Assembly (NCBI GenBank): GCA_948466335.1
Contig: CAOKAE010000010.1
Location: 1 to 57,187 of the forward strand
Length of the DNA stretch: 57,187 bases
Origin: an uncultured Coriobacteriia bacterium
GTDB taxonomy: Bacteria > Actinomycetota > Coriobacteriia > Coriobacteriales > QAMH01
Reading direction: 5' to 3'
A program made the position numbers and the translations under genes. The notes below the pieces were generated by a model. That model saw only the letters and a program-made list of their open reading frames with translations. It had not been told where the DNA came from and made no database searches. Positions 5,632 to 21,865 of the stretch are shown piece after piece; the first letter of the stretch is position 1, and each line of letters opens with the position of its first letter.

Positions 5632-6321
5632 TTATTTCAACACGGAAAAGTCCACTAGAAACGGATCGACACTGCTCATGAACTCCTTGCGATGAGCTAC
5701 GGTGGCCTGACCTTCGGGAATGGTCTTGAAGGCATTGGAGACCTCGGATGCCTCGCTGAAGAACAGCTCGAGGATGCCGTCAAAGGGAAGGCGGTCGTGG
5801 TTGACGTGCTGGCCGTTGACCATGCGGTCGATGATGAGGTGCTGGTTGTAGCCGAAGAATATGTCGGTGGGCATCTTCGCCATGCACCCGGAATGGACGA
5901 CGAACCACTCGCGCGTGAAGTCCTCGAATGACACGTCCGGTACCGTACGGCCCAGCAACGTCATCTTCTTATGGCACCCATCCTCGACGCGCAGGGGAAT
6001 GGAGACGTTTTCCAGGCATACGTAGGTCTCGTTGTAGACCACCGCATTCACGCGCTCGCGTAGCATGGCCTTGTACGCATCCGATTGCGCGGCCAGCTCG
6101 TAGGCATCCAGATCGACATAGCGTTCAATGGTGAAGGCATCGGCGAGAATGGCCTCGGACGAGGCGTCTCCTTGCTCCTTGAGGGTGACTCGATCGACCT
6201 CGAAGGACTCGAGCCCCGGGATTCGAAGGCAAAGGGGCGCATAATCGTCATGGAGGAAACGCTCGAAGTCGCCGTCTGAAACAGCCGGGTCTTTGCGAAA
6301 GAGATTAATGCAGGAAATCAT
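5632..6321 (-). CDS. EthD-like two-domain protein (paralogue 1 of 3)
   Basis: This 229-residue protein belongs to a set of three paralogues in this island. Each opens with MISxINLxxK and has two repeated alpha/beta halves of about 110 residues. The second half contains the EthD-type pattern FTREWFVVHSGCMAKMPTD and GYNQHLIIDRMVNG, with a closing GILELFFSE. Dimeric alpha+beta barrels of this kind include EthD and small-molecule isomerases, oxygenases or degradation helpers. AAAGGA sits before ATG 6321. It is the last gene of a minus-strand run starting near 10714 and is likely made with the adjacent SnoaL-like protein. Its precise role is unknown; it may bind or process the island's substrate. 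Confidence 0.68.
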   Translation of the reverse strand: MISCINLFRKDPAVSDGDFERFLHDDYAPLCLRIPGLESFEVDRVTLKEQGDASSEAILADAFTIERYVDLDAYELAAQSDAYKAMLRERVNAVVYNETYVCLENVSIPLRVEDGCHKKMTLLGRTVPDVSFEDFTREWFVVHSGCMAKMPTDIFFGYNQHLIIDRMVNGQHVNHDRLPFDGILELFFSEASEVSNAFKTIPEGQATVAHRKEFMSSVDPFLVDFSVLK

Positions 6322-6339
6322 TGCGCCTGTCCTTTCCCC

Positions 6340-6831
6340 CTACATCATGAACACCTTGTAGGCGTTGGCGGTGTCTTCGTAGCGTTTCTTGATCTCCGCC
6401 TCGCCGCGCAGGTAGGTGAGCGACATTTCGGTGAAGTACCAACGCCCGTCGATCTTCACGTACCTGTTGTCATAGTGGGCGCGGCCGAAGAACTCCCCGC
6501 CGTTCTCGGCGTCGTAAAGGTCGTCTTCCAAGGACCAATGCGAAATGGCCGTGCCGTCATCGTTGACCTCGATCCAGTGATGGTGGCCTTGATGACTCGA
6601 GGTGACGTTTTCGGTGAATTTGCCCTGCATCGTGGCGAGCATGCCGTCACGTCCCTCGTAGCGTCCACCGGTCGTGTTGTTGATGAACGCGAAGTCGTCG
6701 ACGAGGATGCCGGCAAGGCCATCCCAGTCCTTGGCGTCGAGGAAATCCCAATACTGCGCTTGCAGGCGCTCGATGGCGCGCATGTCCTCGAGCTTCTCGA
6801 TGCGTCGCTCGAGTTCCTCCATGGTTGTCAT
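6340..6831 (-). CDS. BaiE-like SnoaL/NTF2-fold dehydratase candidate
   Basis: A 163-residue single SnoaL/NTF2-like cone domain. An N-terminal helix (LERRIEKLEDMRAIERLQAQ) is followed by YWDFLDAKDWD, a SHQGHHH turn, HWSLEDDL and a C-terminal DGRWYFTEMSL strand. Compared from memory with bile acid 7-alpha-dehydratase BaiE (about 166 residues), Tyr27, Asp32, His80 and Asp103 fall at a constant offset of three from the reported catalytic Tyr30, Asp35, His83 and Asp106. A lyase removing water next to an enone is therefore plausible. The open frame extends upstream to 7080, but AAGGAG before ATG 6831 and the SDR stop at 6845 fix the start. The substrate is not known. Confidence 0.72.
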   Translation of the reverse strand: MTTMEELERRIEKLEDMRAIERLQAQYWDFLDAKDWDGLAGILVDDFAFINNTTGGRYEGRDGMLATMQGKFTENVTSSHQGHHHWIEVNDDGTAISHWSLEDDLYDAENGGEFFGRAHYDNRYVKIDGRWYFTEMSLTYLRGEAEIKKRYEDTANAYKVFMM

Positions 6832-6844
6832 GGCACGACACTCC

Positions 6845-7594
6845 TTACAGAAGGCTGAAGCCGCCCTCTTCGTAGATGGTCTCTCCGGTGATGAACGAGG
6901 CGTCATCCGAGGCGAGGAACAATGCGACGCTGACCATCTCCTCGATTTCGCCGTAACGACCGAAGGGCATCTTGGCCAGGAAGGCCGCGTTGCGCTCGGG
7001 ATCGAACCTCGTGCCCTCCGTGATGCGGGTCTTGGAGGTGCCCGGCGCCACGGCGTTGACGTGGATATCGTACTTGGCAAGCTCCAGGGCCATGACCTGG
7101 GTGAGCATGCTCACCGCCGCCTTGGAGGGGCCGTAGGGGGTGATGCCGCCGATGGTCTTGCGGGCGCTATTGGAACTCGTGTTGACGATATGCCCTTTCA
7201 CGCCAAGGTCGACCATGGTGCGGGCCACGGCCTGGCCGACGTAGAACACGCCGTTCAGGTTCGTGTCCATGACGTCGAGCCAACCTTCCTGGCTGCAATC
7301 CAGAAACGCCTCGCGATGGGTGATGCCCGCGTTGTTCATGAGGACGTCGATGCGTCCGAACCTATCGATGACCTCCGCGACGCTTTTCTGGACCTGACCG
7401 TAATCGCGCACGTCGCAATGGAGGCAGTACACGCTCTCGTTATCGCCGAACGCCTCCTCCATGGTGTCATCCTCGATGTCGAAAACGGCAACCTGGGCAC
7501 CTTCCTTCACGAGCTGCTCGACCATGCCGCGCCCCAGGCCGTTGGCACCACCGGTCACGAGCGCGATCTTGTCTATGAATCTCTGCTTTTCCAT
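6845..7594 (-). CDS. Short-chain dehydrogenase/reductase (SDR)
   Basis: A 249-residue classical SDR. The NAD(P)-binding glycine motif TGGANGLG is near residues 14-21. NNAG is near 90, and the catalytic Ser and Tyr-x3-Lys occur in NTSSNSARKTIGGITPYGPSK. An Asp (VFDIEDD) at the end of beta-2 favours NAD(H). These enzymes interconvert alcohols and ketones. Here it probably oxidises or reduces a hydroxyl of the island's substrate. AGAAGGG precedes ATG 7594; the longer open frame upstream overlaps the preceding SDR and is not used. It shares the C-terminal FLASDDASFITGE pattern with the other two SDRs. Confidence 0.9.
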   Translation of the reverse strand: MEKQRFIDKIALVTGGANGLGRGMVEQLVKEGAQVAVFDIEDDTMEEAFGDNESVYCLHCDVRDYGQVQKSVAEVIDRFGRIDVLMNNAGITHREAFLDCSQEGWLDVMDTNLNGVFYVGQAVARTMVDLGVKGHIVNTSSNSARKTIGGITPYGPSKAAVSMLTQVMALELAKYDIHVNAVAPGTSKTRITEGTRFDPERNAAFLAKMPFGRYGEIEEMVSVALFLASDDASFITGETIYEEGGFSLL

Positions 7595-7613
7595 GGGTTT
7601 CCCTTCTCGTTCG

Positions 7614-8510
7614 CTATTGCTTGTCGGCCGTGGCCAGATGTAGATACGTCGTGGCTCCTCCATCCACGGCGATGTACTCGCCGTTGATGAAGCTCGCATC
7701 GTCGGAGGCGAGGAAGAGCGCGACGGTCGCGATTTCCTCGGGAAGCGCATAACGCTTCAACGACGATGCCTCGGAAAGCCCCTTCCTGTTCTGCCCGCGC
7801 GCCAGCGTCATGTCCGAAAGCACGAGGCCCGGATTCACGGCATTGACGCGCACGCCCAAGGGCCCCAGGTCGGTGGCGGCGGCGCGAGTCGCGCCCAAGG
7901 CGGCGGCCTTCGCCATGGCATAGCCAATGAGGTTGCCCGGTCCGAAGTGGTTGCCCTGGTACGAGCATATGTTGACGATGGCGCCGCCACCGCTGTCTAT
8001 GATCGCCTGCGCGCAGTAGTGCATGCCGTTATAGACGCCCCAGCAATCGACATCCATCATGCGGTTCAGGTCCTCGCGCGAACACGTCAGGATGGATCCG
8101 TTCACGCAGATTCCGGCGTTGTTGACGAGCACGTCCAGGCGCCCGCATTCGTCGTCAACCTTCTTGACGAGCTTTTGCCATGCGACCTCGTCGACGACGT
8201 CCATGGGAAACGCCACGGCCTCTCCCCCGTCATCCTTGATGGCCGCCTCCACGCGCGCGAGGCCGTCTTCCTTGATGTCGGTCATGTACACCTTGGCGCC
8301 TTGCTGGGCGAACATCTTCGCCTCCATCTCGCCCTGACCACCGGCGGCACCGGTGACGATGACCACCTGGTCCTCGAACTTTCCGGTCCCCTTGGCGACA
8401 CGCGACCAGCGCTTGGCCTTCTGCTCGGCGTATACCTTCTCCTCGAACTCGCGCTGGCCGGGGCCAGTGACGATGGCGTCCTCGAAGAACTCCGCACGCT
8501 TCGATTTCAT
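7614..8510 (-). CDS. SDR family oxidoreductase with N-terminal extension
   Basis: This 298-residue SDR has about 45 extra residues before its Rossmann domain (MKSKRAEFFEDAIVTGPGQR then QKAKRWSRVAKGTGKFEDQ). The cofactor motif TGAAGGQG is near residues 54-61, NNAG near 130, and Ser/Tyr-x3-Lys in NICSYQGNHFGPGNLIGYAMAK. The ending FLASDDASFINGEYIAVDGG is classical SDR. The charged N-terminal extension is unusual and may mediate oligomerisation or partner contact. It lies in the run EthD-SDR-SDR-SnoaL-EthD, 20 nt from the next SDR. Substrate unknown; a hydroxysteroid-dehydrogenase-like role is a guess from context. Confidence 0.87.
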   Translation of the reverse strand: MKSKRAEFFEDAIVTGPGQREFEEKVYAEQKAKRWSRVAKGTGKFEDQVVIVTGAAGGQGEMEAKMFAQQGAKVYMTDIKEDGLARVEAAIKDDGGEAVAFPMDVVDEVAWQKLVKKVDDECGRLDVLVNNAGICVNGSILTCSREDLNRMMDVDCWGVYNGMHYCAQAIIDSGGGAIVNICSYQGNHFGPGNLIGYAMAKAAALGATRAAATDLGPLGVRVNAVNPGLVLSDMTLARGQNRKGLSEASSLKRYALPEEIATVALFLASDDASFINGEYIAVDGGATTYLHLATADKQ

Positions 8511-8574
8511 GATTGCCTCCGTTCGGGAAGCGGCTGCACCGGGCGAATCGCGTGATGCAGCCGACGTAGATCTG

Positions 8575-9276
8575 CTAGTTTTTCAGCTCGACTTCGACGG
8601 GCTCGACGAAATAGGTCGTAACCGTGCCGATGAACTCGGCCGCATGCACGCTCGCGCGCTTCTTGTAGCCCACGCTGGTGTAGCACTCGTCAAAGGCATC
8701 CATGTCCTCGAACCAGAACTCGACCATGCCCTCGACCGGGAGCTTGTCGTAGTGGACCTCCTCGTCGCCAACGCACCTGTCGATGACGAGGTTCTGGTTG
8801 TAACCGCAGCAGCCACCCATGAGCTCGACCAAGATGGAGTGGATGTACCACCACTCGAAATGGAAGGTCATGGCATCGACCCCTTCGGCGCGATCGCAGA
8901 AGGAGACGCGCTTGATGATGTCGCGGTCCTTGAGATACGCGGGAACGAGCTTGTCGAACTTCCTCACCGTGATGAGCGCGGGTATGGGTTCGTCGACGAT
9001 GGGTTCGAGCGCCGCGGTCAGGACATCGCCCGAATGGGCGTAGCCCTCGAGCATGTCGCCATAGCTATCGAAGATCAGTTCGATGAAACCATCGATGTCG
9101 ATGCTACCGCGCGCGGCATGGGAGCGCTGCTGCTTGTCGGTCACGAAGTTGATCTCGCATTTGCGCAGCAGGGGCATGGCGGAAATGACATTGCTGACCT
9201 CCCCCATCATCACCGCACGGAACTGTTCCTCGGTAATTCCCTCCTTGCATTTGAGCAAGTTGATCCTCGAAATCAT
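8575..9276 (-). CDS. EthD-like two-domain protein (paralogue 2 of 3)
   Basis: A 233-residue paralogue of the proteins at 5632 and 17747. The first half starts MISRINLLKCKEGITEEQF. The second half starts near IKRVSFCDRAEGVDAMTF and includes FEWWYIHSILVELM, GYNQNLVIDRCVG and VEFWFEDMDAFDECY. The internal repetition suggests a fused dimeric alpha+beta barrel. No classical catalytic motif can be named. AAAGGA precedes ATG 9276. It is the first gene after a hairpin (9315-9368) that separates it from the MFS transporter gene, so its expression may be partly uncoupled from transport. Confidence 0.7.
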   Translation of the reverse strand: MISRINLLKCKEGITEEQFRAVMMGEVSNVISAMPLLRKCEINFVTDKQQRSHAARGSIDIDGFIELIFDSYGDMLEGYAHSGDVLTAALEPIVDEPIPALITVRKFDKLVPAYLKDRDIIKRVSFCDRAEGVDAMTFHFEWWYIHSILVELMGGCCGYNQNLVIDRCVGDEEVHYDKLPVEGMVEFWFEDMDAFDECYTSVGYKKRASVHAAEFIGTVTTYFVEPVEVELKN

Positions 9277-9314
9277 AGCTGCGTCCTTTCTCTAGGATGT
9301 GTCGTCCTTGCAAC

Positions 9315-9368
9315 AGGGGCGTGACCACGTTCCCTCGCCGAGTAGACGGGAATTCCGGTCACGCCCCT
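9315..9368 (-). terminator. Hairpin between transporter and EthD-SDR genes
   Basis: AGGGGCGTGACC (9315-9326) and GGTCACGCCCCT (9357-9368) form a perfect 12-bp stem with a 30-nt loop, in the 175-nt gap downstream of the MFS gene. Only a weak T tract follows on the minus strand. It may be a leaky terminator or an mRNA-stabilising hairpin that sets the transporter-to-enzyme ratio. Confidence 0.55.
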
Positions 9369-9451
9369 TTCGGGCAAACTTGTGGGCCGCGTACGCTGCG
9401 CACGCCTTGGTCCCACGAGCCATGGAGCGCGATCGCCTTCGATTGGGCGTC

Positions 9452-10714
9452 CTACTCCTCGGCGTTCTTCGCCTCCATCATGACCGCGTCGCGCGCCTTC
9501 ATCTTGTTGTAGATGGGCATGCCGATGGCAAGCAGGATGATGGCGATGATGCAGAGCACACCCAGGATGGGAAATGCCGTGCTGTAACTACCGGTCGTGG
9601 CAAGGGTGTTGGCGGAAAGCATGGGACCGATGACGGCGGCAAGCGCATAGCCCCAGTACATGAAGCCGTAGTTCTGGCCCATGTTGGCCGGACCGAAGGC
9701 GTCGCCGGTGAGCGAGGGCATGATGGCCATGATGCCGCCGAAGCACATGCCCAGGACGATGGACTCGATGATGAAGGGCATCATGGTGTCGGTGTTGCCG
9801 TAGAGGAACAGGTGGATCACGGCGGTGATGCCGATGACGATGAACAGCGTCTGGAAACGGCCGATCTTATCGGATAAGGTGCCGAAGCCAAAACGTCCCG
9901 CCGCATTGGCCACGGCGAAGATGCTGACCATCAAGGCACCCGTCGCGGCGTCCATGCCCGCTTGCGTCTGGCCAACGAGGGATGCGGTGCCCAACATGAA
10001 CACGCCCGTGCACGCGGTAAGCGCGAAGGTGATGACCATGATCCAGAACAGCGGGGTCTTCATCATCTCGGGAGTGGTGTAGCTCCTGCGGTTCTTGGCC
10101 TCCTCGTCCACGGGAGGATTCCACCCTTCGGGCTGATAATCCGCAGGCGGCAGGATGTAGCAGAGCCACGAGAAGATGAGGAACATGACGATGCTGAACG
10201 CGCCCACGACCATGAACGAGGGCATGGGGCCAATGGCCTGCACAATCATGTTGCCGGCCGGAGCCGTCCATAGTGGCCACAGGGCCATCGTGGCAAGGGA
10301 TATGCCGTTGACAAGGCCCTTCTTGTCCGGGAACCAACGAGTCGTCAGGGCAAGCGACGTATTGTAGATGATGCCGTCGGCAAAGCCGACGATGATGCCG
10401 AAGGTGATGAGCAGCATGATCGGGTCCGTGGAAAAGCCCGTGAGAATCCAGCCGATGCCGAAGACGATGCCGCTGACGAGTATGATCTTGTGGGCGGCGA
10501 ACTTACGCTGGAACCAGCCGCCGATGGGACCACCCGCAAAGCCAATGACGACGATGGCGAGCGTGTAGGCGAACGCCACAATCTGCGGCGACCAGCCGAA
10601 CTCCGCCATCATGGGCTTCTGAAAAATGCTGTAGCAATTCAATGATGCGGTAATCGCGCCGCACATTGCCGCGCCGACGAGAACGACCCAGCGCGATTTG
10701 GGTTTCATTGCCAT
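9452..10714 (-). CDS. MFS transporter, OFA (oxalate/formate antiporter-like) type
   Basis: A 420-residue major facilitator with about 12 transmembrane helices. It begins MAMKPKSRWVVLVGAAMCG and has the OFA-like features SIFQKPMMAEFGW, GGPIGGWFQRKFAAHKI and ALTTRWFPDKKGLVNGISL. The second half has GRFGFGTLSDKIGRF, the equivalent of the MFS loop motif. OFA-type carriers exchange small carboxylates, but many gut actinobacterial members are of unknown specificity. GGAGG lies 7 nt before ATG 10714; a longer open frame upstream lacks a binding site. It is the first gene of the 10.7-5.6 kb run, so uptake or efflux of the island's substrate is the likely job. Confidence 0.85.
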   Translation of the reverse strand: MAMKPKSRWVVLVGAAMCGAITASLNCYSIFQKPMMAEFGWSPQIVAFAYTLAIVVIGFAGGPIGGWFQRKFAAHKIILVSGIVFGIGWILTGFSTDPIMLLITFGIIVGFADGIIYNTSLALTTRWFPDKKGLVNGISLATMALWPLWTAPAGNMIVQAIGPMPSFMVVGAFSIVMFLIFSWLCYILPPADYQPEGWNPPVDEEAKNRRSYTTPEMMKTPLFWIMVITFALTACTGVFMLGTASLVGQTQAGMDAATGALMVSIFAVANAAGRFGFGTLSDKIGRFQTLFIVIGITAVIHLFLYGNTDTMMPFIIESIVLGMCFGGIMAIMPSLTGDAFGPANMGQNYGFMYWGYALAAVIGPMLSANTLATTGSYSTAFPILGVLCIIAIILLAIGMPIYNKMKARDAVMMEAKNAEE

Positions 10715-11075
10715 GTTCTTCCTCCAAAACTGTGCCTGAACACAATGTACATGCGAAAGGCTCCTCACCTTTCCCCAAGCGAAAACCCTCCTCCTTTCGA
10801 CCCGACGTGCGAACCGTTCCGTGCATGCAAGACTCCGACGTTGTAGCGAGCGTTGATGTGCCGGAACCTGCTGATGCCAAAAACCGGATGAAACCTTCAC
10901 CGCCATGTTGCGGTTTTGCCAAGGAACTGAATGAAACCGGCGGAAGCGATGATTCCTTCCGCCCTGGGGACATTTCCTCCCACGAGTTGCATGCTATGTG
11001 GGTTTGAAGATGACCTCAATAACGCACTTACAAGTAAGAAGCCGCCGCGTGGACGGGTACGGCGATGGAATGCGG
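10715..11075. other. 361-nt non-coding leader region before the MFS gene
   Basis: No credible gene is seen here. It contains a shared operator-like motif (11019-11038) and a perfect 8-bp stem GGCGGAAG/CTTCCGCC (10939-10963). A long leader then runs to a strong GGAGG site at the MFS start. If transcription starts near the motif, the mRNA has a leader of about 250-300 nt, which leaves room for post-transcriptional control. Confidence 0.5.
11019..11038 (+). promoter_or_regulatory. Shared operator-like motif, site A
   Basis: CAATAACGCACTTACAAGTAAG ends in the perfect inverted repeat CTTAC-AA-GTAAG. Closely similar sequences occur before the MHS transporter (14090-14130) and between the EthD and OYE genes (18521-18540), all within this island. 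It is a candidate binding site for the HxlR regulator encoded at 16372-16860. Confidence 0.55.
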
Positions 11076-12473
11076 TCATAGGAACCCAAGCCCCCTCATG
11101 GTCATGACGAAGGCGATGAGGGCGACGGAGGCGACAATCGCATAAAGCCCATTCCACCGGAGGCTCGCCTCCACGAAGGACACCTCCACCATGTCCGCGA
11201 CGGCAATGACGTTTGCCGAAGCCGGGCATATCGTGTTGCCCAACGCCCAGCTCATCGACAAGACGAGCGCAAGGTACGCGACCGAAATCCCGCAGAGCGC
11301 CGGATCGACGGCACCCCCTATGACGGCCGTGGCCACGATGGGATGGATTCCCGCCGCGCAGGTGAGCAAGACGATGGCGACGATGGCGACGGTCAACAGC
11401 AACGTGCTTTGCCCGGTGGTGAGCATGAGGGTTTGCGCGATGACGTTACCGATGCCCGAATAGCCGATGCTCTGGGCGAGCATGCCCGCCCCCACGAAGA
11501 GGACGACCTGGTTCTTGGCGCCGGGAAGCTTCTTCTCGAAATACGTTGCCTTGAGTTCCCTGCGGTATTGGGGCAATCGCCCTATGACGAACATCCAAAT
11601 GAGGGGCCACACCACGGAGGCCATGGCGACGACGATGATGGCGGAGAGGGCGAACATCTGGGAGACCACGGCGATGGATGCTATGAGGAGCACGGAGAAG
11701 ATGGCCAGTTCCGCCATCTTGGCCTTGTCGATGCTCCCCGGCATCTCCTCGGCCGCGTCCGCGTCATCGCGTGCCACGGGAGCACCCTTGCCTTGCCTGC
11801 CCGCAAGAACCGTCATCAGGATGCCGACGCCTTCCGCGATGATGGCGCAGGCAATCGCGCAGGGGGCAAAGCTCGTCCAATCCGCACCCGTCACGGAAAC
11901 GACCAAGGCGATGGTCGCCGACGTGGGCGCCCATATCATGCACGTGACGAACCCACGCGCAAGCGCCGTCCCCAGAAGCCTCTTGTCACCGGCCAGTCGA
12001 CTCTCTCGCGATATCTCGAACGTGAGCGGCACCGCCGCGATGCTTATGAGCGCACCGACCACGGCCGCCATCGCGCTTACGAGCGAGTAGTACCCTCCCC
12101 TGGAGTTGGCACGTCGGGCGAACAACCCCCTCAGCGATTCCCTGTAACCCCCGTGCTGGACGGGTATGCCGATGAGCGGAATCAGAATGAACATGACGAT
12201 GAGGTCGGCGTTCTTGCGCAGCGCACGCACCCATTCCTCCACCGGCGCCTGGGTATAGAGCAGCAGGGCGACGCTTACGGCGATGAGGATGACGCCGATG
12301 AGCCGCGAGGAACCCGTCGAGACAAAGACGCTCATCGCGAGCACCACGACCATGAGAACGATGCACACGTCGTCGAGGAGCGCGGAGCGCAGAAAGACGT
12401 TGACGACATAGCACACGGCGAAGCACAGGGTAACGGCGCTACGCACGGTACGCATGGCGGTGGACTCCCTCAT
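11076..12473 (-). CDS. IT-superfamily (citrate/dicarboxylate-type) membrane transporter
   Basis: A 465-residue polytopic protein with roughly 11-12 membrane helices in two halves joined by a hydrophilic loop (VARDDADAAEEMPGSIDKAK, about residues 230-250). The second half contains a GAGMLAQSIGYSGIGNVIAQ stretch and a CPASANVIAVADM motif, which recall the re-entrant loops of ion-transporter-superfamily carriers. A strong GGAGGGGAGG site lies 8 nt before ATG 12473 and decides the start; a longer frame reaches 12545. It follows the MHS transporter in the same direction with a hairpin between them. The substrate is likely an organic anion. Confidence 0.7.
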   Translation of the reverse strand: MRESTAMRTVRSAVTLCFAVCYVVNVFLRSALLDDVCIVLMVVVLAMSVFVSTGSSRLIGVILIAVSVALLLYTQAPVEEWVRALRKNADLIVMFILIPLIGIPVQHGGYRESLRGLFARRANSRGGYYSLVSAMAAVVGALISIAAVPLTFEISRESRLAGDKRLLGTALARGFVTCMIWAPTSATIALVVSVTGADWTSFAPCAIACAIIAEGVGILMTVLAGRQGKGAPVARDDADAAEEMPGSIDKAKMAELAIFSVLLIASIAVVSQMFALSAIIVVAMASVVWPLIWMFVIGRLPQYRRELKATYFEKKLPGAKNQVVLFVGAGMLAQSIGYSGIGNVIAQTLMLTTGQSTLLLTVAIVAIVLLTCAAGIHPIVATAVIGGAVDPALCGISVAYLALVLSMSWALGNTICPASANVIAVADMVEVSFVEASLRWNGLYAIVASVALIAFVMTMRGLGFL

Positions 12474-12514
12474 CGAACGTACCTCCCCTCCGAAAAGCCA
12501 ATCGAGAAACATGC

Positions 12515-12543
12515 GGGCGCAGGAGGAAACACCCCCTGCGCCC
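12515..12543 (-). terminator. Intercistronic hairpin
   Basis: GGGCGCAG (12515-12522) and CTGCGCCC (12536-12543) form a perfect 8-bp GC stem between the MHS transporter stop and the ribosome binding site of the IT-type transporter. Followed on the minus strand by a short T-containing tract, it could be a partial terminator or attenuator between the two transporter genes. Confidence 0.5.
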
Positions 12544-12577
12544 ATGACGATGCGAAACGAAACGACGCGTCGCGAAG

Positions 12578-13897: not shown

Positions 13898-14193
13898 ACC
13901 GCTCCCCTTTCGCGAAGATCTCCATGCGCCCCGGAAACCGTCCGTCCCCCATGGGAGAACCGAATATCGCGAAGCGCCTTCCACCTGCACCTATGCCTGC
14001 ACGGAATATCGCGGCAAATATGACCAAGCTGCAGGAATAACCCATGTATCTCCTCTATGGAAAATGGTATGACCGGCGGGAATAACGCTCAATAACGCAC
14101 AAATAAGTTAGCGCTCACCAAAAAGTAAGGTGTCGGAGGAAAAGGCGTCCCGATTCGTCCGGGCGAGACGCCTTTCCAGCGCGCGTCGGACAA
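13898..14193. other. 296-nt regulatory gap before the MHS transporter
   Basis: There is no gene here. The gap holds two operator-like copies (14090-14130). It also holds a 10-bp direct repeat GAATATCGCG, at about 13962 and 14003, between those copies and the MHS start. Upstream it touches the end of the OYE gene, so this is where the transporter pair gains its own promoter. Confidence 0.5.
14090..14130 (+). promoter_or_regulatory. Shared operator-like motif, sites C1 and C2
   Basis: CAATAACGCACAAATAAG begins at 14090 and matches site A over its first 11 bases. A second copy, GCTCACCAAAAAGTAAGG (14113-14130), follows about 23 nt later. The tandem arrangement suggests cooperative binding upstream of the MHS transporter gene. 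Confidence 0.5.
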
Positions 14194-16254
14194 TCAGACT
14201 TCACAGGCCGCCTTTCTGCCATCGGCAATGGCATGTTTGACGAAGGAGTTGTCACCTCCCAACGTGGAGCCTATCTCCACGACCTCGATACCCGTGCCCT
14301 TGAGCTCGTCGAAGAACGCGCCATCGCGCCTTTCGGGGAGCATGACGAGCATGCTATCGCAGGCAAAGGCGCGCTCCTTGCCGTCCACCTCCGCGATGAC
14401 GAGGCCCTTGCGAATCTCCTTGCACGTGGCATTGCGCACGACCTCGACGCCGTGGTCCTCGAACCAGGGCTCCAGACGCACCTTGTAGGGAACGGGAACC
14501 AATCCGCCGATGTCATCGTCTTCCGCAAGCAGAGTGACCTCCTTGCCGCAATGGGCCATGAACGTCGCGCACTGGGCTCCCTCGGCACCGGCGCCCAAGA
14601 CGACTATGCGCTTGCCCACGGGCATGAAATGCCTGCTCGCCTTGTGGATGAACTCGGGGCTGAAGAACCTGAGGGGAAGTTTCGCGAGCTTCGAGAGGCC
14701 CGGAATGGTGTACACCTTGCCGCCATCGATGCCGGGAATGTCGGGGACCAGGTACGGCGAGCTGTTGGCGAGCATGACCACGTCGGGCATCTCGCGCCTG
14801 ACGAGCTCGGCCGTGACCTCCTCGTTGAGATGCACCCGCACGTCGGACTTGCTCACCATGGTCGTAAGGTAGTCGTAGATGGGCATGATGTCCTCGACCT
14901 TGCTGCCCTTGATCATCGAGGCCAGCTTGAGCCTGCCGCCCAGCTCGCCGGATTTCTCGTACAGGTCGACCTCGTGGCCACGGGCGGCCGCGTCAATGGC
15001 CGCCTGCATGCCGGCAGGGCCTCCGCCGACGACCATGACCTTTCTCTTCCTTTCGGCAGGCGTGAGCGCGAGCTCCCCTTCGCGCCCGAGCGCCGGGTTC
15101 ACGCGACAGATACGCGGGGAGACGAGCGGGTCCTGGCACGACCCGCAACGGTTGCAGCGGCGAATCTCGTCGATGCGCCCTTCCCGCACCTTGTTGGGAA
15201 ACTCGGGGTCCGCCCACAGGTAGCGGCCGAAGCCGATGATGTCGGCATAGCCTTCCTCGAGGGCACGTTCGCCTTTCACCTCGTCCATGCGCCCGACGCA
15301 CACGACGGGCACCTTGACGGCATCCCTGATGTACTTGGCCGCCGGCAGCAAAAGGCCCATGCCCTCGAAGTCCTTCATGTACGGACGCATATGGGGCTCC
15401 GGGTCGGGATAGGGGAAGTAGTCCGGGACGAAGCGGAACGGGAGCTCGCCGTAGCCGTAACCGGTCACGCTTATGTATTGATAGCCAATCATCTCGAGCG
15501 CGATGGCGGTGTCACGTGCCATATCGGGCGTGATGCCGTTATCGCCCGTCAAAGGCGAGAACTCGATGCCGTTGATGCGCGTTCCGATGAGGAAGTCCGG
15601 GCCGCACGCCTCGCGAATCATCTGGTAGAGCTCCGCCATGACACGGGTGCGGTTGGCGACGTTCTCGAAGGCGTACTCGTCATCGCGCTTGTTCCAGATG
15701 GGGCTGAGGAAGCTGTTGAGCAGGTATCCATGGGCCGCATGCACCTCGACGCCATCAAAGCCCGCCTTCTTCATGCGCACGGCACCTTCGACGATGAGCT
15801 TTTCCTTCTCGTGAATCTCCTCGACCGAGAGCCCGCGCGTCGCACGCCCCTCGGGTTCGGGAATGGGAAGGTCCTCGGTTTCGATCGTGGACGAGCTGAA
15901 GGGGCGACCCTCGCCGAGCACGGCCGCCGAAGGGCCGCCGTGATGGAGCTGGCCGATGATGTAGCAATCGTGGCGATGCACCGCCTCCGCAAGTTCGGTC
16001 AGACCCGGGATGAACTTGTCATCCCAGACGTTGCAGTAGCGTCCCGGCATGTCATCCCACATGACGCCGCCGATGACCACGGCTGCCGCACCGCCTGCGG
16101 CAATGCTCTCGTACAGGCCGATTGCCGCACTGCCATCGGCGGTGCCATCGTCGTTCCAGCGAAACGTCGATTGCCCCGTCTTCATGATGCGGTTCTTGAA
16201 GGTGATTTTCGGGGTGACCTCCAAAGGAGACATGAGTTTTTCGAAACTGCCCAT
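14194..16254 (-). CDS. OYE-type NAD(P)H:flavin enoate reductase with Fe-S and FAD domains (reductase 1)
   Basis: A 686-residue enzyme of the 2,4-dienoyl-CoA reductase/BaiCD/BaiH architecture. The N-terminal FMN TIM barrel (about 1-360) has GQLHHGGP and VHAAHGYLLNSFLSPIWN (His172, His175). The Fe-S cysteines are at 367, 370, 373 and 383 (CNRCGSC...C). Spacing after the second Cys is shorter than the usual CxxCxxxC. An FAD/NAD Rossmann pair follows (VVGGGPAGMQAA near 408; VVLGAGAEGAQC). It should transfer hydride electrons to an activated C=C bond. ATG 16254 follows AGAGAGG; the longer frame is rejected. It lies downstream of EthD, SDR and HxlR genes. It is a close paralogue of the enzyme at 18698. 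The substrate is unknown. Confidence 0.9.
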   Translation of the reverse strand: MGSFEKLMSPLEVTPKITFKNRIMKTGQSTFRWNDDGTADGSAAIGLYESIAAGGAAAVVIGGVMWDDMPGRYCNVWDDKFIPGLTELAEAVHRHDCYIIGQLHHGGPSAAVLGEGRPFSSSTIETEDLPIPEPEGRATRGLSVEEIHEKEKLIVEGAVRMKKAGFDGVEVHAAHGYLLNSFLSPIWNKRDDEYAFENVANRTRVMAELYQMIREACGPDFLIGTRINGIEFSPLTGDNGITPDMARDTAIALEMIGYQYISVTGYGYGELPFRFVPDYFPYPDPEPHMRPYMKDFEGMGLLLPAAKYIRDAVKVPVVCVGRMDEVKGERALEEGYADIIGFGRYLWADPEFPNKVREGRIDEIRRCNRCGSCQDPLVSPRICRVNPALGREGELALTPAERKRKVMVVGGGPAGMQAAIDAAARGHEVDLYEKSGELGGRLKLASMIKGSKVEDIMPIYDYLTTMVSKSDVRVHLNEEVTAELVRREMPDVVMLANSSPYLVPDIPGIDGGKVYTIPGLSKLAKLPLRFFSPEFIHKASRHFMPVGKRIVVLGAGAEGAQCATFMAHCGKEVTLLAEDDDIGGLVPVPYKVRLEPWFEDHGVEVVRNATCKEIRKGLVIAEVDGKERAFACDSMLVMLPERRDGAFFDELKGTGIEVVEIGSTLGGDNSFVKHAIADGRKAACEV

Positions 16255-16371
16255 GAATCGGTACCTCTCTCTATCGCGGGTCGGCCCGCATTTGAATCGA
16301 AGGTTGCTTTCATTGCGGCACGCGCAAAACGCGTTGCCTTGTCCATGCATAGATGCGTGATGTATGTCGGG

Positions 16372-16860
16372 CTATTGCGCCGTGTCGTCCTCGTCGTAGG
16401 TGGAATCGAAGTGCCAGATGTACTTCTCGTGGGGAGAGCGCTGATGTTCGTCATCGTTGATGCCGTACTCGAGTTTGCCCTCGTTGATGACGCCCTTCGT
16501 GCGCTTGAGCGCATCGACGGAGAAATCGCAGTGCACGACTCCCCAATCGCGGATGAGGTACAGGAGATTCGCGAGGCTGATGCCCTTGGTCGTGAGGAAG
16601 TAATCGACCCACAGGGGTTTTTCCTCCACGACGAGGCGCTCGACTATCCCCTCCTCCTCAAGCTCGTTGAGATGCTGGCTGAACATCTTGTCCGAAATCT
16701 TGTAGGGAATGATCTTCTTGAGCTCGCCGTAACGGGCGCGCCTGTCAGGTTGCAAGCTCAGATACCAGATGATGAAGGGCTTCCACTTGCCGCCCAGTAT
16801 CTTCGAGAGAACCTGAGTCAACATGCAAGAGGTGAGCCTGTCAATGCTGCTAGCCGTCAT
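16372..16860 (-). CDS. HxlR-family winged-helix regulator
   Basis: A 162-residue HxlR-type regulator. Characteristic elements are LGGKWKPFIIWYL (about residues 22-34), RRARYGELKKIIPYKISDKM, a recognition helix in FSQHLNELEEEGIVERLV, and the wing KPLWVDYFLTTKG. The C-terminal 50 residues are acidic and unusual in length. HxlR proteins act as dimers and often sense electrophiles, aldehydes or pathway intermediates. Set between an SDR and an OYE gene, it is the only DNA-binding regulator in the island. It is therefore the natural candidate to bind the CGCACTTA..AAGTAAG motifs. Cys12 and Cys111 are candidate redox residues, but this is speculative. Confidence 0.87.
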   Translation of the reverse strand: MTASSIDRLTSCMLTQVLSKILGGKWKPFIIWYLSLQPDRRARYGELKKIIPYKISDKMFSQHLNELEEEGIVERLVVEEKPLWVDYFLTTKGISLANLLYLIRDWGVVHCDFSVDALKRTKGVINEGKLEYGINDDEHQRSPHEKYIWHFDSTYDEDDTAQ

Positions 16861-16886
16861 GATCGCCTCCTAGATGCGCCGCGGCG

Positions 16887-17642
16887 TCACAGGTGCTGTC
16901 CCCCGTCAATCCCGAACACCTCGCCGACGATGAACGACGCGTCGTCAGATGCGAGAAAGCACGCGATGGCGGCCATGTCCTCGGGCTCTCCCAGCCTCTT
17001 GGCGGGAATGCTCTCGACATAGCTCGCGTGAGCCTCCTCGTCACTCCATATCATCTCGGTGAACCGCGTCTTGGTAGTGCCCGGCGCGTACCCGTTCACC
17101 CGCACGCCAAAGGGTGCCAGCTCCTTCGCCCAGATCATCGTCATCTTCGTCAACGCGGCCTTGGAAGGTCCGTAGCCACCACCGTTGGGGAAGGTCTTGA
17201 TGGCGGCGTTCGAGCAAGTGTTGACGATGACGCCCGCGCCCTGCTCGACCATCTGACGGGCCACCGCCTGACCGACGTAGAAGGCGCCGAAGGTGTTAAC
17301 CTCGAACACCCTTCGAAACGCCTCGGGCGTGCACTTGAGCATGGAGTATTCGTCGGTGATGCTCTTCGTGTTGATGCCAGCGTTGTTCATGAGCACGTCG
17401 ATGCGGCCGAAGTGCCCGACGATGTCGAGAATTGCATCGGTGACCTGGTCACATGACGAGACGTCGCACGTCACGGCATACGTATCCGGATCGTCGCCGT
17501 AGATTGCGCGCAGGGCATCCCCGTCGATATCGACGACGGCGATCTTCGCGCCCTCGTCGAGCAGGCGTCTCGCTATGCCGGCCCCGATGCCAGACGCGGC
17601 CCCGGTGACGACGGCGACCTTGCCGGCAAATCGTTGTTCCAC
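16887..17642 (-). CDS. Short-chain dehydrogenase/reductase (SDR)
   Basis: A 251-residue classical SDR: TGAASGIG near residues 14-21, Asp at the end of beta-2 (VVDIDGD, favouring NAD), NNAG near 90, and a catalytic set in NTCSNAAIKTFPNGGGYGPSK. The C-terminal CFLASDDASFIVGEVFGIDGG is shared with the two SDRs at 6845 and 7614, and it is especially similar to the one at 6845. It is in one run with EthD paralogue 3 upstream and HxlR downstream. The likely role is oxidation or reduction of a hydroxyl/keto group on the substrate of the adjacent OYE reductase. Confidence 0.9.
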   Translation of the reverse strand: MEQRFAGKVAVVTGAASGIGAGIARRLLDEGAKIAVVDIDGDALRAIYGDDPDTYAVTCDVSSCDQVTDAILDIVGHFGRIDVLMNNAGINTKSITDEYSMLKCTPEAFRRVFEVNTFGAFYVGQAVARQMVEQGAGVIVNTCSNAAIKTFPNGGGYGPSKAALTKMTMIWAKELAPFGVRVNGYAPGTTKTRFTEMIWSDEEAHASYVESIPAKRLGEPEDMAAIACFLASDDASFIVGEVFGIDGGQHL

Positions 17643-17746
17643 TTGTGACTCCCCTCTTCGAACGGAATAGCAGCGGACCGGACTCCGCGAGTCCGGCCCA
17701 GAAGCCGTTACTTCAAACTGGATTGGTTGCCAAAGCGCGTGCCGTC

Positions 17747-18442
17747 TTACAGAATGTCGTGAACTTCCGTGAGGTACGTGTTGATTTCGCCAATGAATTC
17801 GCCGCCGTGTTGCGACGTCCTCTTAAACTCGCGCGAATCATAGCATTCGTTGAAGGCATCCATGTTCTCAAACCAAAACTCCACGATTCCCTCAACGGGA
17901 ATCTCGTCATAGTGCACGGAGACGCCATTCACGATGCGGTCGATGACGAGGTTCTGGGCATAACCGGCATAACCGGGCATGGTGTGCACCATCTCGGTGT
18001 GCACCTCCCACCACTGGCGCTGCCACTCCTCGGCACTGACCCCCTCGGCGCGACCCATGAACGAAACGCGCTTGATGAGCTTCTTGTCGCCATTCAGGAG
18101 GTAGTCCGGCGTGCGCTTCACGAACTTCTTGACGCAAACGAGAATCGGATTGTGCGGGTCGGCAAACTTCGGCACGTCGTCGGCACCCTTGCCATCGAGC
18201 GACGCGACGCCCTCGAGCATGTCCCCGTAGCTGTCGAATTGCAGCTCGGAATAGCCATCGATGATGATGGGACCTTGCCCCAGAGGATGCCGATGCTCGT
18301 TATCGCAGATGACGTGCTGTGAATAGTGGCGGAGGTTCTTCATTTCCGCCGCGATGGGACCGTGGACGTTCAGCCAGTAATCCTGGAACTCGTCTTGGGT
18401 GGTCCCCTCCTTGCGCTTCAGGAGTCCAATCCTACTGATCAT
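17747..18442 (-). CDS. EthD-like two-domain protein (paralogue 3 of 3)
   Basis: A 231-residue paralogue of the proteins at 5632 and 8575. The first half has MISRIGLLKRKEGTTQDEF then YWLNVHGPIAAEMKNLRHY, the clearest EthD motif of the three. The second half has RQWWEVHTEMVHTMPGY, AQNLVIDRIVNG and VEFWFENMDAFNECY. The conserved VHGP/VHxxM histidines in both halves suggest two similar binding sites. It is the first gene of the 18.4-14.2 kb run, divergent from the second OYE gene. Every enzyme unit of the island on the minus strand has such a protein, so it is likely integral to the pathway. Its function is unassigned. Confidence 0.72.
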   Translation of the reverse strand: MISRIGLLKRKEGTTQDEFQDYWLNVHGPIAAEMKNLRHYSQHVICDNEHRHPLGQGPIIIDGYSELQFDSYGDMLEGVASLDGKGADDVPKFADPHNPILVCVKKFVKRTPDYLLNGDKKLIKRVSFMGRAEGVSAEEWQRQWWEVHTEMVHTMPGYAGYAQNLVIDRIVNGVSVHYDEIPVEGIVEFWFENMDAFNECYDSREFKRTSQHGGEFIGEINTYLTEVHDIL

Positions 18443-18697
18443 GCCGCATCACTCTCCTTAGGTGTCCTTGTGTGCTCCGACCTTCCTCATTGAGTCTATG
18501 GACATGGGTTCGACGGAGCAATTACGCACTTAAAAGTAAGGGTGGGCATCTAAATGGGAGGCATGGAGTGCGCCTGTCGAAAGCCGGCCTTGCAGACAGA
18601 CTAACCAGAAAGTGCGTACTGGTCGGAACCATTTTCGCACCTTACGATTGCAGCCGCATTACGGAAATGCCCCAGGATGACGTCGAAAGAGGACACG
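18443..18697. promoter_or_regulatory. Divergent regulatory region with operator-like motif, site B
   Basis: This 255-nt gap separates the EthD-SDR-HxlR-OYE run from the divergent OYE gene. ATTACGCACTTAAAAGTAAG (18521-18540) matches site A. A reverse-oriented relative, TACGCACTTTCTGGTTAG, reads on the minus strand over about 18601-18618. TCGCACCTTACG (18635-18646) is a third, weaker copy. Several sites in one divergent region fit coordinated control of both directions by one regulator. Confidence 0.55.
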
Positions 18698-20761
18698 ATG
18701 CAACGATTCGAACATCTCATCTCGCCCATCGAAATCGCGCCAGGCTTCACCATGAAGAACAGGATCATGAAGGCCCCGCAATCGACGTGGAGGTGGAATC
18801 TCGACGGAACGGCGGATGGCAGTGCCGGCATCGACCTGTACGAGAGCATGGCCAAGGGCGGCGTGGGCGCAATCGACATCGCCGGCATCAACTGGGAGCC
18901 TCCCGTCGGAGGAGGCATATACCTCTGCGCCTATGACGACAGGTTCATTCCCGGACTCACCGAGCTCGCGAAGCGACTGCACAAATACGATTGCCGCGTC
19001 ATCGGCCAGCTTCATCACGGCGGCCCCCTGGCGCCCGCGCAAGGCGATGGCAGGCCCATCTGCGCGTCCACGCTCGAGATCGAGGACCTACCCACCCCTC
19101 CCCCCGAGGGCAAGGCGACTCACGGGCTCACCCACGACGAGCTCCTGGAGAAGCGCCAGCTCATCGTCGATGCCGCCATACGCCTGTGGAAAGCCGGGTT
19201 CGACGCCGTGGAGATTCACGCGGCCCATGGGTACTTCCTCAACAGCTTCCTCAGCCCCATCTGGAACCATCGCGACGACGAGTACGGCCCCCAGAGCGCC
19301 GAGAGCCGCACGCGCCTCATGCGGGAGATCTTCGACATGGTGCGCGAGGCCTGCGGTCCCGATTTCGTCATCGGCACGCGCATCAACGGGCAGGAATGGT
19401 CGCCCCTTGCCGCGGGAGCCATCACGCCGCAGCTTGCCGCGGAAAACGCCAAGGCGCTCGAGGCCTGCGGCTACCAGTACATCAGCGTATCAGGATACGG
19501 GTACGGGCCGTTGCCCTTCCGCTACTGCCCCGATTACTTCCCCTATCCCGACCCCGAGCCCTTCATGGAACCCTACATGGACGACTTCAGGGGGCTTGGT
19601 ATCCTGATGCCCGGCATCAAGGCCGTCAAGGAGGCCGTGAGCGTACCGGTCATCGGCGCCGGGCGCATGGACGAGGACAAGGGCGAACGCGTCTTGCGCG
19701 AGGGTCACGCCGACATCATCGCCTACGGCCGCTATCTATGGGCCGATCCCGAGTTCGCCAACAAGGTGCGCGACGGCCGAACTGACGAGATACGCCGCTG
19801 CAACCGGTGCGCGAGCTGCGAGGACCCAGTGACCTCACCGCGCATATGCCGTGTGAACCCGGCGCTCGGTCGCGAAAGGGAACTCGAGCTCAAGCCCGTC
19901 GAGACGAAGAAGAGGGTCATGGTCATCGGCGGTGGTCCCGCCGGCATGCAATGCGCGCTCGATGCCGCAGAACGCGGCCATGACGTGACGATTTACGACA
20001 GCAAGTCGGAGCTGGGCGGCAGGATCAAGCTCGCCGCCATGATCAAGGGTGACAAGGACGAGGAGGTCATGCCCCTCTACGACTACCTCACCACCATGGT
20101 GGAGAAGTCGAACGTCAAGGTGAAACTTAAGACCGAGGTCACGCTCGACCTCGTGAAGCGCGAAAATCCCGACATCGTCGCATTGGCCAACAGCTCCCCC
20201 TACTTCATCCCCGCCATCGAGGGCATCGACCGCAAGAACGTCTTCACGGTACCCGGCATGACCAAGCTCGCCACCGTGCCCATGAAGATGTTCGGCCCGG
20301 CCAAGCTCGCGTCCATGAGCGAGAAGTTCTTCCCCGTGGGAAAGAAGGTCGTCATCCTCGGCGCCGGTGCCGAAGGCGCGCAATGCGCGACGTTTTTGGC
20401 TCACCGCGGCAAGGAGGTCGTGCTGCTCGCCGAGGGGGAGGACATCGGCGGCCTCGTACCGCAGAAGTACAAGGTGCGCTTGGTTCCCTGGTTCGAGGAA
20501 CACGGCGTGCAGATTCTCCGCAACGCACGACTACTCGAAATCGGCAGGAAATCCGTCACCGTGCAGGTGAACGAGGAGTCCCGCGAGATTTCCTGCGACA
20601 GCGTGATGATCATGCTTCCCGAGGAACATGACCCCACGTTCTACGAGCAGCTGAGGAAAATCGTGCCCGAGGTCTACGAGATTGGCTCGACCCTGGGCGG
20701 GGAAAACGCCTTCCTGAAGCACGCGATGCTCGACGGACGACTCGCGGCCGTGAAAATGTAG
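18698..20761 (+). CDS. OYE-type NAD(P)H:flavin enoate reductase with Fe-S and FAD domains (reductase 2)
   Basis: A 687-residue paralogue of the enzyme at 14194, similar along its whole length. FMN barrel motifs are GQLHHGGP (103-110) and IHAAHGYFLNSFLSPIWN. Fe-S cysteines are at 368, 371, 374 and 384 (CNRCASC...C). FAD/NAD motifs are VIGGGPAGMQCA and VILGAGAEGAQC. ATG 18698 has GAGG close upstream; the frame's first ATG at 18677 is less well placed. It is divergent from the enzyme operon and followed by an AEC transporter. Two such reductases echo BaiCD plus BaiH, which act on opposite sides of the A-ring double bonds, but that analogy is only structural. Confidence 0.9.
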   Translation: MQRFEHLISPIEIAPGFTMKNRIMKAPQSTWRWNLDGTADGSAGIDLYESMAKGGVGAIDIAGINWEPPVGGGIYLCAYDDRFIPGLTELAKRLHKYDCRVIGQLHHGGPLAPAQGDGRPICASTLEIEDLPTPPPEGKATHGLTHDELLEKRQLIVDAAIRLWKAGFDAVEIHAAHGYFLNSFLSPIWNHRDDEYGPQSAESRTRLMREIFDMVREACGPDFVIGTRINGQEWSPLAAGAITPQLAAENAKALEACGYQYISVSGYGYGPLPFRYCPDYFPYPDPEPFMEPYMDDFRGLGILMPGIKAVKEAVSVPVIGAGRMDEDKGERVLREGHADIIAYGRYLWADPEFANKVRDGRTDEIRRCNRCASCEDPVTSPRICRVNPALGRERELELKPVETKKRVMVIGGGPAGMQCALDAAERGHDVTIYDSKSELGGRIKLAAMIKGDKDEEVMPLYDYLTTMVEKSNVKVKLKTEVTLDLVKRENPDIVALANSSPYFIPAIEGIDRKNVFTVPGMTKLATVPMKMFGPAKLASMSEKFFPVGKKVVILGAGAEGAQCATFLAHRGKEVVLLAEGEDIGGLVPQKYKVRLVPWFEEHGVQILRNARLLEIGRKSVTVQVNEESREISCDSVMIMLPEEHDPTFYEQLRKIVPEVYEIGSTLGGENAFLKHAMLDGRLAAVKM

Positions 20762-20821
20762 CCCCTCTTGCCTTCTGACGACGCAACCCAGAGCGAAGTT
20801 CCAGACGGCATGTCACTCCTA

Positions 20822-20863
20822 GGCACGTGAGGACCCCTCCTCCTCACGTGCCACCTCCTTTTT
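20822..20863 (+). terminator. Rho-independent terminator
   Basis: A perfect 11-bp stem (GGCACGTGAGG at 20822-20832 with CCTCACGTGCC at 20842-20852) and a 9-nt loop are followed by ACCTCCTTTTT. It lies between the OYE gene and the AEC transporter, so most transcription probably ends here. The AEC gene may need read-through or its own promoter. Confidence 0.8.
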
Positions 20864-20899
20864 CCGCAACCGCACGCGTCTTGACGAGAGGAGCGTCCC

Positions 20900-21865
20900 A
20901 TGGGCGAGTTGGCAATGGCCCTGCAGCAGATGCTCGTCATGATGGTCATCATCGCCATGGGCTTTGCGGCGACGAAATTCGGGTTGCTCGACGACAGCTT
21001 GCTCGCGAGGCTCACGCGCCTGCTCGTCTCCATGACACTACCGTGCATGATCCTTGGTTCCGCAAACACGCTGACCGGCGCATCGGGCGAAATCCAACTT
21101 GCATGGACATGCGGCCTGGCGGTCCTCCTCATGGCCCTGTCCATACTCGGGACCTTCGTCTTCAACATCCTCTTTCGCGTGCCAAAGGGTGAGCGGTTCC
21201 TCTACCTGTTCATGTCGGTCTGCACGAACATGGGGTTCATAGGCATCTCCGTCGCATCCGCCATCTACGGCGAGGCGGCCGTCTTCTCGGCGAGCATCTT
21301 CGTGCTCGTCAGCAACGTCTCCATCTTCAGCGTCGGGTTCATGTTCCTGGACATCGGCAGGGCCGATGGCACGTCCCTGCGCCCCAAATCCCTCGCCGAC
21401 GTGCTCAAGGTGCTCAGGTCGCTCCTCAACCCGGCAACCGTCTCGTGCATGCTGACCGTGCTCGTCTTTGCCTGTGGGCTGGGCTTTCCGCCCTTCGTCC
21501 AGAGCGTCCTGACCACCGTGGGCGGGATAACGGCACCTTTGGCGATGATGCTCGTGGGCGTAATCATAGCGGGCATTCGCCCCGCCGAGGCGGTCAGGGA
21601 CTGGCGCGTCTACGCGTTCATCGCGTTTCGCCAGATCGTCGTCCCCGTCATCGCGATTCTCGTCCTGCGCCCGCTTGGCCCCGATCCGACCGCCCTACGC
21701 GTGTTCGTCATCATGGCGGCGATGCCCGTCGGCTCCATGGCCCCCATGCTCACGGCGCAATTTAGCCATGATGCGACACTCGTCGCAAAGGCGACGGTGC
21801 TCAGCACGGTTTTCTCCCTCGCCATCGTCCCGGCATTGCTCGCCATCATCACGATGGGAACGTGA
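20900..21865 (+). CDS. AEC-family (auxin efflux carrier-like) transporter
   Basis: A 321-residue integral membrane protein with about 10 helices in two inverted halves. AEC features include MGFAATKFGLLDDSLLARLT, a TLPCMILGSAN-like first helix pair, NMGFIGISVASAIYG and the C-terminal FRQIVVPVIAILVLRP followed by PVGSMAPMLTAQF. The family exports or imports organic anions such as malate and malonate. GAGAGG precedes ATG 20900. It is separated from the OYE gene by a strong terminator but is in the same direction, and it converges with the flavodoxin-like gene only 11 nt away. Confidence 0.88.
   Translation: MGELAMALQQMLVMMVIIAMGFAATKFGLLDDSLLARLTRLLVSMTLPCMILGSANTLTGASGEIQLAWTCGLAVLLMALSILGTFVFNILFRVPKGERFLYLFMSVCTNMGFIGISVASAIYGEAAVFSASIFVLVSNVSIFSVGFMFLDIGRADGTSLRPKSLADVLKVLRSLLNPATVSCMLTVLVFACGLGFPPFVQSVLTTVGGITAPLAMMLVGVIIAGIRPAEAVRDWRVYAFIAFRQIVVPVIAILVLRPLGPDPTALRVFVIMAAMPVGSMAPMLTAQFSHDATLVAKATVLSTVFSLAIVPALLAIITMGT

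Follow-up and report, generated by a model that had tools for sequence, protein, structure and literature searches.

Does the island of fourteen genes at positions 5632–21865 of contig CAOKAE010000010.1, from an uncultured Coriobacteriia bacterium, belong to the bai operon of bile-acid 7alpha-dehydroxylation that its gene content brings to mind, and what kind of compound would it act upon? The whole stretch of DNA analysed (the window) is 57,187 nt long. The evidence favours, with a probability of about 0.6, a substrate-inducible regulon for the reductive removal of ring hydroxyls that would follow bai-like logic without being a bai operon. What has been observed, and carries this reading, is gene content, conservation, co-occurrence, a shared operator and catalytic residues.

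The 14 genes have the coordinates that the first-pass annotation had given them, and their third-position GC is coding-like. Searches of Pfam and NCBIfam verified three EthD proteins, a SnoaL_4 protein, three short-chain dehydrogenases (SDRs), an HxlR regulator, an auxin efflux carrier (AEC) family transporter, two transporters of the major facilitator superfamily (MFS; one OFA-type, one of the metabolite:H+ symporter (MHS) type) and two reductases that combine old yellow enzyme (OYE)/FMN and Pyr_redox domains. This bears out the inventory first proposed (two OYE/Fe-S/FAD reductases, three SDRs, a BaiE-like protein, three EthD proteins and HxlR). Three transcription units had been counted; strand breaks and cis-elements give four.

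The proposal of a BaiE-like dehydratase held up well. Its best relatives of solved structure are BaiE (4l8o, 4l8p and 4leh; E = 5e-16), the scytalone dehydratase-like protein 3ef8 is also among them, and Tyr, Asp and His align at all three positions of the BaiE catalytic triad (which we take to be numbered Tyr30/Asp35/His83). The position of BaiE Tyr54, presumably a substrate contact, is not Tyr in the alignment of the window dehydratase. Orthologs in seven other genomes are 73–83% identical, and the enzyme is about as conserved as RpoB, for which the window genome and Eggerthella lenta show 81% identity.

A search for conserved synteny in Eggerthellaceae, as the first-pass annotation had advised, was run by locating homologs with a tandem-EthD protein and then comparing gene by gene. 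It found a collinear operon of 12–14 genes in seven other genomes: E. lenta, E. sinensis, Gordonibacter sp. An230, Rubneribacter badeniensis, one Coriobacteriia metagenome-assembled genome (MAG) and two further genomes. The E. lenta operon lies in a genome of 3,632,260 bases (single contig) that we take to be Eggerthella lenta DSM 2243, and the species names given to genomes G058 and G162 are likewise presumed. The common order is HxlR, EthD, MHS transporter, a transporter of the 11076–12473 type, EthD_A, OYE_x and OYE1, followed by the OFA transporter, EthD_B, SDR298, SDR251', SDR249 and the BaiE-like gene, usually with one more EthD. The contig of the Coriobacteriia MAG starts within the cluster, and its copy is without the 11076–12473-type transporter. 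The island is a rearranged member of this operon family: it is divided into four units, OYE_x is absent, OYE2 has been added as a paralog of OYE1, and an AEC transporter (absent from the collinear operons) and a divergent EthD are present. A putative ribosomal protein S9 gene (identified by eye) adjoins the operon of E. lenta, E. sinensis and Rubneribacter; the S9-like gene of the window genome is on a different contig from the island. In the operon of the JAUNWQ Coriobacteriia MAG (L074:8379–10406), a third, highly divergent OYE-family protein (~30% identity) is situated between the OFA transporter and EthD_B. The open-licence literature yielded no description of the Eggerthella cluster, and a search there for the locus tags that the E. 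lenta operon should have, as estimated from position, returned no paper.

Among 398 Coriobacteriia, a BaiE-like profile returned eight orthologs at 320–360 bits, with the next match at 48 bits, and an EthD profile matched the identical eight genomes; this co-occurrence is perfect, although the counts are phylogenetically non-independent and probabilities derived from them are indicative only. Within the family of E. lenta (Eggerthellaceae) the dehydratase ortholog is found in 7/119 genomes. Collinearity of the same genes in seven other genomes, together with the co-occurrence, argues that the grouping is not due to chance. In a sister species in the genus of the window (G001), the genes from OFA to EthD_C, which make up the left part of the cluster, are present with about 98–99% protein identity on a contig that stops inside the OFA gene; with the collinear operon elsewhere this led to rejection of chance or artefact as an explanation. 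BaiE-like and EthD genes are both missing from a third species of the genus. SDR249 shares 84–86% identity with most Eggerthellaceae copies (JAUNWQ MAG copy, 75%), compared with 81% for RpoB, and nests within that family in trees, whereas OYE1 and EthD_A fall outside it, so that partial gain of the window cluster by lateral transfer is possible and no firmer.

One motif, ACTTNNAAGTGCGTTNTTG, recurs between genes in both the window and the E. lenta operon: its palindromic ACTT-NN-AAGT core runs into TTG (-35-like), and a -10-like box comes about 20 bases later, at a spacing that is fixed across the aligned sites. The promoters carry the palindrome ACTTNNAAGT, which is restricted to the cluster. 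Three of the four window units have a ACTTNNAAGTGCGTTNTTG-type operator-promoter upstream (Table 1), and the three window sites found at up to three mismatches, against 0.10 expected in shuffles, are all at unit promoters. The sites of the window and of E. lenta served to build the pattern and so match by construction; the other genomes provide the independent test. Genome-wide searches of nine genomes placed every exact match inside the cluster. In the E. lenta family the motif was found at up to one mismatch in 7/7 cluster-bearing genomes, with all exact matches inside the cluster, while the 112 cluster-less genomes (of 119) gave no exact match and one single one-mismatch match altogether. 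Since exact matches lie only inside the cluster across the 119 Eggerthellaceae genomes searched, the separate units form one predicted regulon.

The HxlR protein (PF01638 domain confirmed) is the sole regulator in the cluster and most likely controls the putative operator sites. Its best NCBIfam matches are the RrpB and RrpA models (named redox transcription factors), far below cut-off, and an N-terminal cysteine, Cys12, is invariant in eight aligned proteins. Members of the HxlR/DUF24 family that have an N-terminal Cys commonly use this position to detect electrophiles.

Table 1. Units, genes and operator sites of the island (window coordinates).
Feature	Position	Strand	Evidence or remark
Unit 1: EthD_A-SDR251-HxlR-OYE2		-	
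Unit 2: MHS-transporter		-	
Unit 3: OFA-EthD_B-SDR298-SDR249-BaiE-EthD_C		-	
Unit 4: OYE1-AEC		+	
EthD_C, divergent tandem-EthD (dimeric alpha/beta barrel)	5632..6321	-	PF07110 31 bits
BaiE-like NTF2-fold (SnoaL_4) dehydratase, 163 aa	6340..6831	-	PF13577 77 bits
SDR249, short-chain dehydrogenase	6845..7594	-	PF13561 211 bits
SDR298, short-chain dehydrogenase, ~40-residue N-terminal extension	7614..8510	-	PF13561 198 bits
EthD_B, tandem-EthD protein	8575..9276	-	PF07110 31 bits
OFA-type MFS carboxylate transporter	9452..10714	-	NF049980; start based on ribosome-binding site
Operator-promoter before unit 3	11017..11035	-	exact match
Polytopic membrane protein, probable transporter	11076..12473	-	ortholog identity about 48-58% in operon
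MHS-type MFS transporter	12578..13897	-	TIGR00883 366 bits
Operator-promoter before unit 2	14090..14108	-	2 mismatches
OYE2, OYE/Fe-S/FAD reductase, OYE1 paralog	14194..16254	-	PF00724 152 bits + PF07992
HxlR/DUF24 regulator	16372..16860	-	PF01638 68 bits
SDR251, short-chain dehydrogenase	16887..17642	-	PF13561 205 bits
EthD_A, tandem-EthD protein	17747..18442	-	PF07110 86 bits + MmlI-like second domain
Operator-promoter before unit 1	18519..18537	-	1 mismatch
Degenerate half-operator AAAGTGCGT, tentative, before OYE1	18606..18620 (approximate)	+	about 4 mismatches to full pattern
OYE1, OYE/Fe-S/FAD reductase	18677..20761	+	PF00724 162 bits + PF07992
AEC-type transporter	20900..21865	+	PF03547 84.6 bits

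All three SDRs contain YxxxK and, following beta2, an Asp, as NAD-dependent members do. Orthologs of SDR249 are up to 86% identical and those of SDR298 77–81%, while SDR251 forms a long branch and reaches about 48% at best with other SDRs of the set. Butanediol dehydrogenases are the solved proteins nearest to SDR298, hydroxysteroid and cyclohexanol dehydrogenases rank lower, and models of hydroxycyclohexanecarboxylate dehydrogenase are among its better scores (below cut-off). OYE2 is 63% identical to OYE1, the orthologs of which are 62–65% identical, and alignment of the E. lenta OYE1 ortholog with FadH (1ps9) shows the four Fe-S cysteines and the catalytic Tyr to be kept. Assignments of the OYEs to BaiCD (NF041087; 292 and 284 bits, cut-off 825), to mycofactocin-system OYE 2 (TIGR03997; 315–324, cut-off 793) and to the long form of bilirubin reductase (NF045599; 293–307, cut-off 750) were rejected.

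The structure model of EthD_A (predicted local distance difference test score, pLDDT, 93.6) returned, by Foldseek and among other matches, bacterial chalcone isomerase (CHI), the 4-methylmuconolactone isomerase MmlI, and anthrone-oxidase-like and monooxygenase-type proteins. Its His148, which does not vary among 20 EthD proteins, lines up with one MmlI His, and EthD_A is likely to be a cofactor-free isomerase or tautomerase. It is not MmlI itself (NF053569, 38.9 bits against 180), although the fold is related. EthD_B orthologs are about 60–73% identical. EthD_C has a 98% identical copy in the sister species, stands on an isolated branch of the EthD tree and is without a clear Eggerthellaceae ortholog. 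Distant tandem-EthD proteins are flanked on both sides by SDRs in Variovorax, have an OYE as neighbour in Rhizobium and, on a Roseomonas plasmid (L033:11246–14926), stand in a row of SDR, tandem-EthD, OYE-type fragment and FAD_binding_2 protein; the association of EthD, SDR and OYE is therefore wider than the Eggerthellaceae operon. The Roseomonas row may be an aerobic counterpart. A contig of an Oscillospiraceae MAG (L022:948–2148) has a lone HxlR-EthD pair, 48% and 58% identical to the proteins of the window, among unrelated neighbours, and represents either a minimal regulator-EthD association or a binning error.

Four transporters of four families had been described. Three named kinds (OFA, MHS and AEC) stand, of which the first two are of a single superfamily (MFS), and the membrane protein at 11076–12473 (pLDDT of the predicted structure, 46) matched nothing in Pfam, NCBIfam or PDB sequences, so that its family is not established. 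The OFA protein scores 348 bits with NF049980 (L-lactate MFS transporter), above the cut-off of 320; the MHS protein falls short with TIGR00883 (cut-off 443) and likewise with the TcuC, ProP and ShiA models. A bile-salt MFS transporter, the parallel to BaiG in the first-pass annotation, was rejected at 50 bits against a cut-off of 400. The OFA- and MHS-type transporters suggest a carboxylate substrate, with a ring carboxylic acid favoured, and a steroid, flavonoid, lignan or terpenoid, as first envisaged, gained no specific support.

The bai operon of Clostridium scindens (BaiB, BaiCD, BaiE, BaiA2, BaiF, BaiG and BaiH) and the island both bring together SDRs, OYE/Fe-S/FAD reductases, an NTF2-fold dehydratase with the same Tyr/Asp/His triad and MFS proteins in one cluster. 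Unlike the bai operon, the island lacks a coenzyme A (CoA) ligase and a CoA transferase, as had been claimed, and it has three or four tandem-EthD proteins, HxlR with a dedicated operator and three or four carriers of other families. A BaiB-type AMP-binding ligase is absent from the 14 genes (Pfam), with eight AMP-binding matches on other contigs, and the BaiF family (PF02515) has no match in this 97%-complete genome, the five control genomes being positive. Thus the parts list resembles bai while the OYEs are not BaiCD or BaiH, and membership was rejected on the failed BaiCD cut-off, the genome-wide absence of BaiF and the lack of a CoA ligase in the cluster; the bai label fits as an analogy. 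A nearby CoA ligase/CoA transferase operon outside the window had been named as a possible refutation; the genome has no BaiF-family gene, and the AMP-binding matches leave the claim of a CoA-free pathway unproven.

Other known systems share parts of the set. The daidzein-to-equol clusters of Slackia, Adlercreutzia and Eggerthella YY7918 (DZNR, DDRC, DHDR and THDR) also pair an OYE/Fe-S/FAD reductase with an SDR for ring reduction in Coriobacteriia, but the island has a BaiE-like dehydratase and EthD proteins instead of the racemase and THDR; domains of a glyoxalase-type racemase or of the fumarate-reductase-like THDR are absent from the 14 genes, and membership was rejected. With CHI of Eubacterium ramulus and MmlI the EthD proteins have in common the dimeric alpha/beta-barrel fold (duplicated in CHI), yet identity is only about 12–26%. 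In dihydroxynaphthalene (DHN) melanin synthesis an SDR is likewise followed by an NTF2-fold scytalone-type dehydratase with removal of a ring hydroxyl; that pair is fungal and biosynthetic, and is without OYE, EthD or transporters.

We infer the order of reactions, the class of substrate, the binding of HxlR to the operator, the role of EthD and the export of product as follows. A hydroxylated cyclic compound would be imported by the carboxylate-type transporters, and an NAD-dependent SDR would oxidise a ring alcohol to the ketone or, if the ring is phenolic, reduce its keto tautomer. One or more tandem-EthD proteins may then shift a double bond or tautomer, a role suggested by the related fold of bacterial chalcone isomerase and MmlI, both of which are isomerases. 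The BaiE-like enzyme would eliminate water from a position beta or vinylogous to the ketone, giving an enone for the OYE/Fe-S/FAD reductases to saturate; an SDR would carry out a final ketone reduction, and an OFA- or AEC-type carrier could export the product. Control of the units via the shared operator would fall to HxlR, which may act through Cys12 and a ligand that is an electrophilic enone or quinone.

Several points weigh against this scheme: NTF2 folds of the BaiE-like kind include non-dehydratases, the AMP-binding enzymes elsewhere in the genome make CoA activation possible, three or four EthD paralogs are left without an explanation, the Eggerthellaceae OYE_x is missing from the window, and the co-occurrence statistics take no account of shared ancestry. 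Among candidate substrates, ring carboxylic acids and meta-phenolic rings rank highest. If the former, polyhydroxycyclohexane carboxylates of the quinate/shikimate type might be converted stepwise, by oxidation, dehydration and ene-reduction, to less hydroxylated ones. The OFA and MHS (shikimate/tricarballylate/ProP-like) transporters, the hydroxycyclohexanecarboxylate and cyclohexanol dehydrogenases among the relatives of SDR298, and the known processing of quinate by gut bacteria (PMC11602726) agree with this, but none of the SDR and MHS models reaches its cut-off, SDRs are too broad a family for a substrate to be inferred, and quinate use by Eggerthella was not found reported in the open-licence literature; we regard it as doubtful, though the least improbable alternative. 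For the latter, the SDR would reduce the keto tautomer of a resorcinol- or phloroglucinol-type polyphenol and the BaiE-like enzyme would dehydrate it to rearomatise the ring, as in the DHN-melanin analogy, with EthD as tautomerase and the OYEs reducing side-chain or dearomatised enones. The relation of the dehydratase to 3ef8, the CHI and anthrone-oxidase-like fold relatives of EthD and the redox-named best matches of HxlR are consistent with such chemistry, and the gut 3-/5-dehydroxylation of dihydroresveratrol to lunularin was without a known organism in 2022 (PMC9449969). Set against this are the carboxylate-type transporters, the lack of evidence for meta-phenol dehydroxylation by the carrying species, and the fact that known Eggerthella dehydroxylases are molybdenum enzymes acting on catechols (PMC7028382), and aromatic dehydroxylation appears improbable.

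A detoxification regulon, with HxlR sensing electrophilic quinones or enones, the OYEs, SDRs and EthD proteins neutralising them and the carriers serving efflux, would account for the invariant Cys12 and the RrpB/RrpA matches; a dedicated dehydratase conserved about as well as RpoB and importer-like symporters suit catabolism better, the distribution in the family is patchy, and this reading likewise seems to us improbable. Lower still stands a CoA-independent variant of bai acting on steroids or bile acids. The known bile-acid chemistry of E. lenta is hydroxysteroid oxidation, which counts against it, as do the scores with the BaiCD and bile-salt MFS models, the absence of the BaiF family and the replaced Tyr54; in its favour are the hydroxysteroid dehydrogenases related to SDR298 and the proximity to BaiE, which reportedly takes free-acid substrates (PMC10382948).

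The remainder of the window includes genes of other kinds. Phosphate-transport genes adjoin the island at 22637–29538 (-), specifying a PHO4 transporter, an ABC ATPase and permease and a substrate-binding protein; a histidine kinase (22637–24205) lies within this stretch and a second at 34101–35510 (-). The left end carries a heavy-metal P-type ATPase (431–2704, -). A surface-type protein of 1711 residues with SpaA prealbumin-like, DUF7601 and DUF5979 domains is encoded at 42107–47242 (-), and a zeta-toxin kinase gene with an adjoining helix-turn-helix protein (50918–52250, -) is a candidate toxin-antitoxin pair. A PIN-domain gene (3158–3586) with a small upstream partner occupies 2802–3586 (+), and genes weakly similar to this pair (26–29% identity) are found directly downstream of the E. 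lenta operon (L015:14004–14715, +).

E. lenta is a gut bacterium that has been much studied for its metabolism of drugs and diet. If its genome is indeed that of DSM 2243, this strain has a 14-gene regulon that seems not to have been described before, equipped with a dedicated operator and a bai-like set of chemistry. The operator offers a handle, as a single-promoter readout could identify the inducer among candidate compounds. A long shot, in our estimate, is that several Eggerthella species, the presumed DSM 2243 among them, use the SDR, EthD and BaiE-like enzymes for a metal-free gut dehydroxylation, without molybdenum, of a non-catechol ring, for example at the meta-hydroxyls of resorcinol or phloroglucinol. 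A known gap in what is understood of gut metabolism would be filled if the substrate proved to be a meta-phenol or a ring acid from the diet.

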